Positions 20,299 through 25,901 of a DNA stretch of 64,000 nt are shown piece after piece. Location of the stretch: the NCBI RefSeq assembly GCF_023169965.1, contig NZ_AP025592.1:3720001-3784000 (forward strand). The letters are read 5' to 3'. The notes beneath the pieces were generated by a model. It was not told where the DNA came from and searched no databases. It worked only from the letters and a program-made list of their open reading frames with translations. This DNA comes from Anaeromyxobacter paludicola. GTDB lineage: Bacteria > Myxococcota > Myxococcia > Myxococcales > Anaeromyxobacteraceae. Positions within the stretch are counted from its first letter, which is position 1; every line of letters starts with the position of its first letter. The position numbers were made by a program, and so were the translations under genes.

Positions 20299-20652
20299 CT
20301 AGGCGACGATGCTGGCGCGGGGGCCGAGGACCGCTCGCAGGTCCTCGACGCGGAACGGCTTCTCCAGCGCCGCCACCTCCGGGTGGCGCGCCAGGGTCTC
20401 GGCGAGCAGGTCGGGGTCGAAGGCGGTGGCGACCACGCAGGCGCGCGAGCTCCGCGCCATCCGGCCGAGGAGTCCGGCCGCGCCGGCGAGGCGCACGTCG
20501 ATGACGCAGCAGCCGAACTCGCCCGAGGCCAGCTCCCGCTCCGCGGCCTCGACGCTGGGGACGGCGGAGACGGCGTGCCCGTCGAGCCTCAGGGCGATCG
20601 CCAGCGCCTGCCGGAAGTTCTGATCGCCATCGATGAGGAGCAGCGGAGACAT
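20299..20652 (-). CDS. Single-domain response regulator (receiver only)
   Basis: A 117-residue stand-alone receiver. It has acidic residues D8 and D10 (LLLIDGDQN), probable phosphoacceptor D52 in CCVIDVRL, T76 and K98 in LEKPF, the full set needed for phosphorylation. No output domain is present, so it acts by protein contact or as a phosphate sink. The start at 20652 lies only 14 bases after the T run of the predicted small-RNA terminator and has only a weak ribosome site (CGAGAG). Expression may therefore depend on read-through from the upstream sigma-54 promoter. It is the last gene of the kinase/NtrC locus and could modulate that phosphorelay. Confidence 0.85.
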   Translation of the reverse strand: MSPLLLIDGDQNFRQALAIALRLDGHAVSAVPSVEAAERELASGEFGCCVIDVRLAGAAGLLGRMARSSRACVVATAFDPDLLAETLARHPEVAALEKPFRVEDLRAVLGPRASIVA

Positions 20653-20666
20653 GCTGGCTCTCGGGC

Positions 20667-20738
20667 AAAAAAAATGAAGTGCAACGCGCGGCGGGAGTGG
20701 TGGGGGGGGTCCTACTCCGACCTGCAGCGTTGCACTTC
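20667..20738 (-). terminator. Intrinsic terminator formed by the small RNA itself
   Basis: On the minus strand the 11-bp stem 20738-20728 / 20686-20676 is followed by ATTTTTTTT (T run 20674-20667). The loop is long (41 bases) but contains a second stem. Termination here lies 14 bases before the receiver gene start, so it may also act as an attenuator for that gene. Confidence 0.75.
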
Positions 20739-20741
20739 TGG
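20667..20741 (-). ncRNA. Predicted sigma-54-dependent small RNA of about 75 nt
   Basis: The transcript predicted from the -24/-12 promoter begins near 20741. Three bases later it enters an 11-bp stem: GAAGTGCAACG (20738-20728) with CGTTGCACTTC (20686-20676), a perfect match. Inside, GGAGT-A-GG (20718-20711) pairs with CCACTCC (20700-20694) with one bulged A, exposing a ten-base loop of eight C flanked by A (20710-20701). After the outer stem come A and eight T. The whole is thus a two-tier hairpin that also ends the transcript. No open reading frame with a ribosome site fits in it. The C8 loop would suit base-pairing with G-rich ribosome sites. The layout resembles Pxr of M. xanthus as remembered (sigma-54 promoter, cytosine run, NtrC-like regulator and kinase genes just upstream); orthology is unproven. 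Confidence 0.7.
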
Positions 20742-20751
20742 CTGGGAGTAG

Positions 20752-20767
20752 AGCAAGCGCGGTGCCA
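20752..20767 (-). promoter_or_regulatory. Sigma-54 (-24/-12) promoter of the small RNA
   Basis: On the minus strand TGGCACC-N4-TTGCT (20767 to 20752) matches the RpoN consensus TGGCACG-N4-TTGCW at all positions but one. GG falls at -25/-24 and GC at -13/-12, giving a start near 20741. It sits between an NtrC-type activator gene and a terminator hairpin, which adds contextual support. Confidence 0.8.
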
Positions 20768-20890
20768 GCGCCCCCGCGCGCCGCCCGGGTCGAGCCCCCT
20801 CTGAGTGAAATCGCCTGCTTGGGACGCTTCGGCGCGGCCGGCTCACCTGCCGAGGTTCGCTCGCCCGGGTGGCTCGAGCGCCCGATGCGT

Positions 20891-20926
20891 CTTTCACTTC
20901 TGCAAAAGAAATTGCAGAGGTGAAAG
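20891..20926. promoter_or_regulatory. 36-bp inverted repeat, candidate enhancer site for the NtrC-type activator
   Basis: CTTTCACTTCTGCAA (20891-20905) mirrors TTGCAGAGGTGAAAG (20912-20926) with a single G-T mismatch in 15 positions, around AAGAAA. It lies 150-185 bases upstream of the predicted start at 20741, the usual distance for a sigma-54 activator site. TGCA half-sites are 8 bases apart. It also begins only six bases after the activator gene's stop and could be a 3' hairpin of that mRNA, but no T run follows. Confidence 0.5.
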
Positions 20927-20931
20927 GAACC

Positions 20932-22319
<1,388 letters not shown>

Positions 22320-22323
<4 letters not shown>

Positions 22324-25300
22324 CCCGTCCCCTCCGCCCCGCCCGGCGGCGCCGCCGGCAGCCGGATCCGGAACGTGGTGCCGCGCCCCGGCTCGCTCTC
22401 CACCGCGATCTCGCCGCGGTGCTCGTCCACGATGCGCTTCACCACCGCGAGGCCGATGCCGGTGCCGGTCGCCTTGGTGGTGAAGAACGGCTCGAAGATG
22501 CGGTGGCGCACCTCGGCCGGGATGCCCGGGCCGGCGTCGCTCACCGCGATCTCCACCCCGCCCGCGCTCGCCGCCACGCGCGCCCGCACCACGCCCCCCT
22601 GCGGCATCGCCTGCGCGGCGTTCACCGCCAGGTTCACGAGGGCCTGCCGGAGCAGCCGCGCGTCCACCGCGACCGGCGGCAGCCCGGGCTGGGACTCGAG
22701 CTCGAGCCGGAGCCCCGGCGCGCGCTGCGCCAGCGCCGAGGTGAGCGCCTCCTCCACCAGCCGGTCCACCGGCTCGGGCCGCAGCGCCGGCGCCGCCGGC
22801 CGCGCGAAGTCGAGCAGGTCGCCCACGATGCGGTTGAGCCGGTCCGACTCCTCGCCCACGATCTCGAGCAGGAGCTTGGCGTCGCCGGTCGGCTTGAGCA
22901 GCCGCTTCAGCGAGCCGAGCGAGTTGAAGATCACGCCGAGCGGGTTGCGCACCTCGTGCGCCACCACCGCCGAGAGCTCGCCGAGCGCCGCCAGCCGCTC
23001 GCGGTGCACGAGCTGCGCCTGCGCCCGCGCCAGGTCGGCGTAGCTGCGGCGCAGGTCCTGGTAGAGCCGGGCGTTCTCGAGCGCCACCGCGAGCTGGTTG
23101 GCGATGGCGGTGGCGCGCTCGGTCTCGGCGTGGGTGAAGCGGCGCGCCTGGCGCTCCTCCACGATCACCACGCTGCCGATGGAGCGCCCCCGCGCCACCA
23201 GCGGGACGCCGAGGTAGGCCTTGGCGCGCGAGACCGCCTGCACCGAGTGGTCCACGCGGGCGTCGCCCTCGGCGTCGTCCACGATGAGCGGCTCCTGGTG
23301 GAGGTAGACCCAGGGCGCGACGCCCGGCTGCTCGAGCGACTGCGCGTGACCGAGCAGCTCCGGGTGCCCCCCGGCGACGGCGCGGATCTCGAGCCGCTCG
23401 CCGGCGGCGTCGGGCAGGAGCAGGTAGGCGTCGGTGGCCTCGACGATGCGCACCAGGTTGCGCACGCCGGCGTCGAGCACCGCGCCGAGGTCGAGCGTCG
23501 AGACGAGCGACCGGCCCACCTCGAGCACCATGCCGAGCTCCTCGGCGCGCTGGCGCTCCTGCCCGTAGAGCTCGGCGTTCTCGAGCCCCATGGCCGCCTC
23601 GCCCGCCAGGGCGTAGGCGAGGGCCACGTCGGCCTCGGAGAAGACCCGGCCCGGCGCGTCCGCCACCACCACCACGCCGCGGGTCGAGCGGCGCGAGGTG
23701 AGCGGCAGGATCAGCATGGCGAGCCGGGGGTGGCCGGGCGCGCTCAGGGGGCTGCGGGGGTCGAGCCCGGTGTCGGCGCAGTAGACCGGCTCCTGCGACC
23801 GGAGCGCCTCGGCGGCGAGGCCGCCCGCGTGCAGGCGGACGTCGGCCCCGGCCGGCGGGAGCGGGTCGCCGTGCGCCGCCATCCCCCTCAGCACCCGCCG
23901 CTCCTCGTCCACCAGGAACACCGCCGCCGAGCGCGCGCCGAGCGCCTGCGTGAGCCGCCGGCAGGTGGCGTCGAGGAGCGGGCGAGGGTCGCCGAGCGGC
24001 GAGCCGAAGACCTCCAGCGCGAGGGCGCTCACCGCCTCGAGGTCGGCGGCGCGCTTGCGGGTGCCGGCGAAGAGGCGGGCGTTGTCCACCGCCACCGCGA
24101 GCTGCGCGCCGACCGCCGAGAGGAGCTGGATCTCCTCCGCCCCGAAGGGCCGATCCTCCCGCCGCCGCGCCAGGAGGAAGGCCCCGAGCGCGCGGTCCTT
24201 CACCAGCAGCGGCACCTCCACCGCGACCCGGATCCCCTCGCGGTCGCGGTACCAGCGCACCTCGGGCGCGTCGCCCTCGAGCACCGGGAGCGGCACGGGG
24301 GCGAGCCGCTCCACCGACTTGCCGAGCGGCCCCTCGCCCACCGCGATGCGGCGGACGCGCTGGGCGGTCTCCTCGCCGACGCCGAGGACCGCGGTCTGCA
24401 CCAGCTCGCGCCCCTCGAGCAGGTAGGCCGCGCCCACCTCGGCGCCGAGGGTGGACATCATCCGCCGGAGCGCGTTCTCGAAGAGCAGCACCGGGTCGAG
24501 CGTGGCGGTCGCGAGCGCGAGGTCGTTGAGCAGGGTGAGCTCGGAGACGCGCCCGCGCAGATCGGCGAGGAGCCGCTGGTTCTCGACGGCCGCGGCGAAG
24601 TGGGCCGCCATGGCCTGGAGCAGGCCGGCGCGGCACTCGGACTCGGGGCGCCGCTCCCCCCAGCCCACGGCGAGGACGCCCAGCACGGTCGAGCGCACCT
24701 TGAGCGGCACGAGCACCCGGGTGGCGAGCCCGAGCGCGCGCATGCGCGCCTGGAGCTCCGGCCCGCCGACCTCGGGCTGGTGCACCACCGGGGCCCCGCT
24801 CTCGACCGTCTCGCCGATGGGGTTGCCCGCGAGCCGCGGCCGCTGCTGGGAGCCCTCGGGGACGCCCTCGGTGTAGCGCAGCACCGCCTCGGCGCCGCCG
24901 GGCTCGAGCAGCCAGAGCGCGAGCCCCTTGCAGCCGAAGGCCCGCAGCACCACCGGCGTGGCCGCCTTCAGGAAGGCGTCGAGGTCGCGGGCCTGCCCGG
25001 CGAGCCGCGCCAGCTCGTTGAGCGCCGCCAGCTCGGCGTTGCGCTCGGAGAGGTCGGAGATGGCCACCCCGGCGTCGAGGGCCGCCGAGACCTGCGCCCC
25101 GAAGAGCCGGAAGGCGGCCAGATCGCGCGGCCGCATCCACGGGCTCATCACGTTGAGCAGGTAGCGCGGCTGCCCGCCCTGGTCGATGCGGACGCTGATG
25201 CCGTTGCCGAACCCGAGCCGGACGGTGGCCTCCCGCGCCGCCGGGCCGCGCTCCGGCCCGAAGAAGGCCTCGACCTCCGCCGGCAGGTCCTCGACGTAGG

Positions 25301-25901
25301 CGGCGCCCTCCGCCCAGGCGGCCCGGGTGGCGGCGGTCCAGCAGGCGCGCAGCCCGGGCAGCCCCTCGCCGAGGGCGCCCTCGGCCCTGGCGCGGGCCAC
25401 CGGATCGCCGATGCTCCACTCGACCACCAGCCCGTCGCCGTCGGGCCGGATGAGCGCCGGCTGGACGCCGATCCGATCGAGCCCCCACCGGAGCAGGTCG
25501 AACACCGCCGGCGCGCTCCGCTCGCGCTGGATCTCGGCGCCGAGCCGGGCGAGGTCGATGAGCCGCTCGCGCTCGATCCGCGGGGCGGTGAGGTCGCGCA
25601 GCTGCACCACCACGTCGTCGCCGTCGAGCGCCACCAGCGCCTCGACCGGCAGCCGGGCGCCGTCGGCCCGCAGCACCTCGGTCTCGAACTCGGTGGGGGC
25701 GCCGGCGCCGCGCAGCCGGCGGGCGTGCCGCTCGAGCGAGGCGGCGCGCCGCTCCTCCGGCACGAAGCGGAGCCAGCTCTCGCCGAGGAGCTGCTCCTCG
25801 CGGTAGCCGAGGAGCGCCAGCGCCGCGGCCGAGGCGAAGCGGACCACGCCCTCGCGGATCACCACCGTGCCGAGCGGGGCCGCGTCGAGGATCCGGCTCA
25901 C
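22320..25901 (-). CDS. Large soluble sensor histidine kinase with PAS and multiple GAF domains
   Basis: A 1193-residue kinase without a membrane segment, so a cytoplasmic sensor. An N-terminal PAS domain (about 5-120) is followed by a chain of roughly five GAF-like domains (about 125-950), recognisable by repeated patterns such as AVLRYTEGVPEG, VPLLVKDRALGAFLLARR and VPLVARGRSIGSVVIVEE. Then come the HisKA box VVAHEVRNPLG (H982), an N box with NLAVNAAQAMP, G1 DAGPGIP and G2 GTGIGLAVVKRI. HEVRNPL-type kinases normally pair with NtrC-family regulators, which fits the overlapping downstream gene. The start is GTG 25901, overlapping the selB stop (GTGA). So many sensory domains suggest integration of several small-molecule or redox signals; no ligand can be named. 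Confidence 0.93.

Follow-up and report, generated by a model that had tools for sequence, protein, structure and literature searches.

Pxr is a textbook example of a small RNA (sRNA) gating multicellular development, blocking the formation of Myxococcus fruiting bodies while food is plentiful. The Qrr sRNAs of Vibrio are multiple, short and Hfq-dependent; they are driven by sigma-54 and the NtrC-type regulator LuxO and end in intrinsic terminators. The element described here resembles Qrr in its predicted drive by sigma-54 and an NtrC-type response regulator and in its intrinsic terminator end, but a relation in sequence or structure is not expected. M. xanthus lacks an hfq homolog (PMC5684412). 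Its pxr gene lies directly 3' of the NtrC-like regulator gene pxrR (nla19/spdR), is accompanied by the kinase gene pxrK and has a sigma-54 promoter (PMC5684412, PMC5568312, PMC10217877). A single C-to-A change in the loop of the first stem-loop (SL1) abolishes Pxr function (PMC5684412), and the direct targets of Pxr have received no experimental confirmation so far (PMC11928866). Tandem pxr paralogs have been described in Cystobacter (PMC5568312).

The window, by which we mean the entire 64-kb stretch of DNA analysed, carries on its minus strand, in this order, selB, the gene of a 1193-aa kinase, the gene of an NtrC-type response regulator, an intergenic stretch of ~280 nt and the gene of a 117-aa receiver protein. 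The response regulator (20932..22323) contains a receiver domain, a sigma-54 activation domain and a Fis-type HTH according to Pfam, and its position in the tree identified it as the PxrR (SpdR/Nla19) ortholog. Most genomes of the order contain one clear PxrR ortholog with 58 to 89% identity, the next-best regulators reach ~51% at most, and the PxrR tree follows the family tree. The kinase (22320..25901, minus strand), whose gene overlaps pxrR by 4 nt, contains a PAS domain, four GAF domains, HisKA and HATPase, and its position and domain make-up point to a pxrK ortholog. The intergenic stretch holds two TTKCA-N4-TGMAA palindromes, a -24/-12 box and a hairpin. The palindromes (20892..20925, minus strand) lie 20 bp apart and are probable enhancer sites of PxrR. 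At least one such site was found ahead of 68 of the 75 pxrR-linked loci, compared to a background of 0.08 per 260 nt, and usually there were two, ~19 to 22 bp apart. When the 4.59-Mb genome was scanned for the paired site, either exact with a gap of 3 to 9 nt or with up to 2 mismatches and a gap of 5 nt, it was found solely at two sRNA genes, one in the window and one elsewhere. Going by this strict paired motif, PxrR looks dedicated to two RNAs.

The features downstream of the palindromes support the prediction of a compact sigma-54-driven sRNA gene, as the first-pass annotation had proposed. The promoter box TGGCACC-GCGC-TTGC (20753..20767) that it reported is present on the minus strand, with TGGCACC at 20767-20761, a 4-nt spacer and TTGC(T) at 20756-20752. 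The predicted +1 at 20741, 12 nt beyond the -12 C at 20753, agrees with the start it had placed near that position. The predicted sRNA of ~75 nt (20667..20741, minus strand) would form a single hairpin that is also an intrinsic terminator, as judged from folding, covariation and covariance model (CM) matches. Its outer stem is, as had been read, a perfect helix of 11 bp between the 5' arm (20738-20728) and the 3' arm (20686-20676), and the eight T noted behind it (T8, 20674-20667) follow after one unpaired A (20675). A second, nested stem carries the apical loop with a C8 run (20702..20709), which corresponds to the C7 loop in SL1 of Pxr. This loop had been overlooked, as had the activator palindromes (20892-20925) and the receiver-gene ATG 14 nt away. 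The minimum free energy (MFE) of the sRNA strand was -36.5 kcal/mol (z = -6.7), and none of 200 shuffled sequences was equally stable. The CM match to the element in its own genome scored 89.9 bits (E 1.8e-20). A generic sigma-70/terminator scan did not pick up the hairpin in the window because the loop limit there is 8.

Sigma-54-like boxes of the same stringency occur ~3.5 times per shuffled window, so a promoter-like box might have come to lie beside a hairpin by chance. However, the combination of a -24/-12 box, a stem of at least 9 bp and a run of seven or more T occurred once in the real window and in none of 200 dinucleotide shuffles, and the unit is conserved across the order. Apart from the T8 run, the 64 kb contain no A or T homopolymer of 6 or more. 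Both results agree with the earlier claims that such runs are rare and that a chance agreement is improbable. We regard a chance alignment as having a negligible probability.

Searching at the DNA level, we detected the unit in relatives, including three tandem copies in G040. In an alignment of 15 single-hairpin homologs, 98.4% of cells were paired, and compensatory changes on both sides occurred at 8 pairs, with such changes in both arms of the outer stem. The covariation was 0.323, compared to 0.179 ± 0.018 for shuffled alignments and 0.073 or less for slid versions. With 37 sequences, 17 of the 21 pairs had compensatory changes (0.442 versus 0.188 when shuffled), although this alignment is biased towards the model, to which it had been fitted. 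The loop GGWCCCCCCCC was nearly invariant among homologs. Long perfect arms would also be seen if the inverted repeat acted only as DNA, such as a protein-binding palindrome, a cruciform or a mobile-element relic, and covariation alone cannot tell RNA from DNA palindromes. However, the T run lies on one strand and on a fixed side, the promoter lies on the same strand at a fixed distance, and the nested inner stem has a fixed C loop and G-U pairs, which occur in the helices of the homologs and favour RNA. Furthermore, the element is not a dispersed repeat, as its two copies in the genome are each syntenic in relatives. A role as DNA only is therefore highly improbable.

The promoter is conserved together with the hairpin. 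Using covariance models built without promoter columns, we found that 17 of 17 strict-score copies away from pxrR in the Myxococcales had a -24/-12 box with at most one mismatch 27 to 30 nt upstream, against an expected background of 0.0009 per slot. Two weaker copies, in G035 and G045, and the copy in G027 also had the box. Weak model matches in G145 and G018 and a second match in G008 were discarded for lack of it, and matches on the antisense strand were discarded as mirror images of the hairpin. The R2 model matched ~120 of the 145 Myxococcales genomes and gave one convincing case outside the order, G188. The conserved box at fixed spacing, the compensatory changes in the stem and the recurrence of the unit at loci without a gene behind it all uphold the earlier reading as an sRNA gene. 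Loss of the unit from relatives that keep the neighbouring genes, which that annotation had named as contrary evidence, was found in part. Nearly all relatives keep the unit, but in G005 and G015 pxrR is retained and the sRNA copy is undetectable, and in G002, G004 and G009 pxrR is retained and the sRNA is present only at a second locus.

Some copies were unusual. In G012 and G007 (L059, L061), the hairpin downstream of pxrR has a wholly different stem (GGGGTGGCGCGG), a C6 loop and no T run. This copy has decayed or been repurposed, and G007 carries an intact sRNA at the second locus. Contig G034:C115:1-297 (L120) terminates in a 30-nt C run within the C loop, for which misassembly of the homopolymer is probably responsible. 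On both strands of G049 (L161 4872-4981), a very strong inverted repeat matched several Rfam models of eukaryotic microRNAs, probably because a long palindrome can resemble them by chance. In L161, L164, L165 and L167, the sRNA of family f7 lies not at pxrR but at a third, common locus, with a separate terminator hairpin downstream of it.

The second sRNA copy in the genome of the window (G000:C1:849784-849853, plus strand) adjoins mutL and lies between this gene and that of a conserved 191-aa protein without a Pfam match. Its locus (G000:C1:849646-849853; L155 2647-2854) is equipped with a separate -24/-12 box and paired activator sites. The neighbourhood is syntenic in G002, G004, G007 and G009, whose copies lie there too. 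A sigma-54 activator gene lies near this copy. G188 has an AT-rich genome and belongs to another class of Myxococcota. Its locus (L178 118-1847, G188:C85) encodes a PxrR ortholog with 70% identity and contains paired TTTCATATATGAAA sites and a perfect sigma-54 box; the C-loop hairpin there terminates in T6. G188 seemed at first to prove that the module is older than the order, but we dropped this idea, as G188 branches at the base of family f1 in the PxrR tree (92/87, an open fork). This position makes horizontal transfer of the regulator-sRNA module more likely than antiquity.

We then compared the element with Pxr itself by examining the region downstream of the PxrR ortholog in 80 genomes. 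At most Myxococcaceae pxrR loci, a -24/-12 box is followed by a C7 run at 56 to 60 nt, and over all loci most spacings from box to C run fall between 58 and 61 nt; in the window, the C8 run lies at 58 nt from the box. These Myxococcaceae loci can be taken as pxr because the published Northern probe matched exactly at 12 loci in 12 genomes, primer GV650 matched two, and matches of the Rfam model of Pxr (RF01812) coincided with them. The R1 model, built from the single-hairpin form with Myxococcaceae excluded, matched SL1 of Pxr at its known place with E values down to 1e-9. The element in the window resembles Pxr in its position directly downstream of the single pxrR ortholog with a PxrK-type kinase upstream, in its sigma-54 promoter, promoter-to-C-run spacing and paired upstream activator sites, and in a first stem-loop homologous to SL1 whose loop carries the C run. 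In contrast to the three stem-loops and ~110 nt of Pxr, the element is one terminator hairpin of ~75 nt ending in T8. It thus has neither SL2 nor SL3, including the conserved 8-bp SL3 segment that is needed for accumulation of Pxr in M. xanthus. In addition, a receiver-domain gene lies downstream in the window, as opposed to the acetyltransferase gene pxrA in Myxococcus, and the host lineage of the window is believed to be non-fruiting. The element is similar to the Cystobacter paralogs in that several C-loop sRNAs share the same regulator. In G040, three tandem short copies of family f9, each with its own -24/-12 box, follow pxrR (L070, G040:C158:1391-2991). However, the Cystobacter copies keep the long form, whereas the genome of the window has two dispersed short copies.

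RF01812 gave no match in the window at the gathering score and none up to E 10 in 20600-20850, and the Rfam search of the entire 64 kb gave no match. The model also had 0 matches in the whole genome of the window and in the listed members of its family; it matched 95 of 145 genomes, all of them Myxococcaceae among the matches listed. A first test of co-occurrence between pxrR and the sRNA was set aside, as RF01812 matched Pxr in several genomes that it had scored negative. The blindness of RF01812, the lack of related sequence beyond the SL1 core and the architecture of one hairpin instead of three would all be expected if an independent sRNA had arisen behind this regulator gene and under its control. 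However, gene position, spacing, activator sites and the core GTTGAAG.AGGT.CCCCCCC.CCACTTCAGC are all common to Pxr, and families f6 and f7 show an intermediate form, in which a separate terminator lies behind a long C-loop hairpin. Such convergence is very unlikely. We assign a probability of about 0.85 to the element being a sigma-54-dependent sRNA under PxrR that is homologous to Pxr, and with similar confidence we regard it as a short one-hairpin relative whose C-loop hairpin also acts as the terminator.

The sRNA is not isolated, since the T run ends just 14 nt before the ATG (20652) of the receiver-domain gene directly 3' of it (20299..20652, minus strand). The product is a receiver-only response regulator of 117 aa (Pfam Response_reg, 4.6e-8), and the sRNA and this gene are probably co-transcribed by read-through. 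Of the 14 family f1 genomes whose downstream region was read, 13 have the receiver gene behind the pxrR-linked sRNA; the exception is G014, in which the RNA is kept. The receiver gene is absent from the five f1 genomes that retain pxrR and have lost the sRNA there (G002, G004, G005, G009 and G015). The hairpin might thus be a 5' leader terminator or attenuator of the receiver-domain gene, with no functional free sRNA. This is consistent with the joint presence or absence of gene and RNA at the pxrR-linked locus, with the distance of 2 to 40 nt from hairpin end to receiver start in the 13 family members checked (23 nt in the window), and with the degraded T run in G010, G017, G012 and G007, where the RNA may serve mainly as a leader. 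However, hairpin, promoter and T-rich tail occur without the receiver gene in G014, G040 (three in tandem), G031, G036 and G188 and at the second copy of the same genome. Moreover, conservation is highest in the C loop, although an attenuator has no need of one, and neither the MFE nor the centroid structure contained an alternative anti-terminator fold. A pure leader function is therefore unlikely. Because copies elsewhere stand alone, we infer that the locus primarily produces the sRNA and that the receiver gene is a read-through partner.

These features suggest a mechanism in which the GAF-rich kinase PxrK would phosphorylate PxrR, which in turn would bind the two TTKCA-N4-TGMAA palindromes and activate sigma-54 polymerase at the -24/-12 box. 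The resulting RNA of ~75 nt would fold into one long hairpin, with the outer stem and U8 terminating transcription and the tip displaying the C8 loop. Leaky termination would allow the adjacent receiver-domain gene to be expressed from the same promoter, and the system may function in transitions between growth and starvation. The C8 loop is the probable target-pairing part, since the C-to-A change that abolishes Pxr function lies in its counterpart, the SL1 loop. It might pair with G-rich stretches of target mRNAs, a mode of action to which we give about even odds. No simple Shine-Dalgarno-like G7 target near a start codon was found in the genome of the window, and GTGGGGGGG close to an ATG was rejected as a target, as it occurs once in the genome and within an ORF. 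In the 24 family genomes, GTGGGGGG-N3-10-ATG was commoner than the reversed control, and a recurrent match (GTG GGG GGC GAG CTG ATG) is possibly protein-coding. Most sites were in the sRNA-less genomes G006, G011 and G015 compared to the rest of family f1, an excess that could stem from composition or from less strict avoidance of the C loop, and these counts yielded no nameable candidate target.

Family f1 appears to include Anaeromyxobacter and would hence lack fruiting bodies. Since the host lineage is believed to be non-fruiting, the RNA switch probably serves something more general than development. Beyond the Myxococcaceae, the current Rfam model of Pxr fails to detect the family. The cis sites of PxrR are now defined well enough for regulon prediction. 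Natural variation singles out the C loop, rather than SL2 or SL3, as the part that matters. A one-hairpin relative in probably non-fruiting bacteria with genomes of 4 to 5 Mb would be a minimal form whose targets could be found without a developmental background. We tentatively suggest, at slightly less than even odds, that Pxr is not primarily a regulator of fruiting bodies. The ancestral PxrK-PxrR pair would instead be a switch dedicated mainly or solely to one or more C-loop sRNAs as its direct targets. It would occur throughout the Myxococcales, including non-fruiting lineages, and would have passed, regulator and RNA together, to another class (G188). The single hairpin would then be the minimal working Pxr, and Myxococcus would later have recruited an older growth-state switch to control fruiting.
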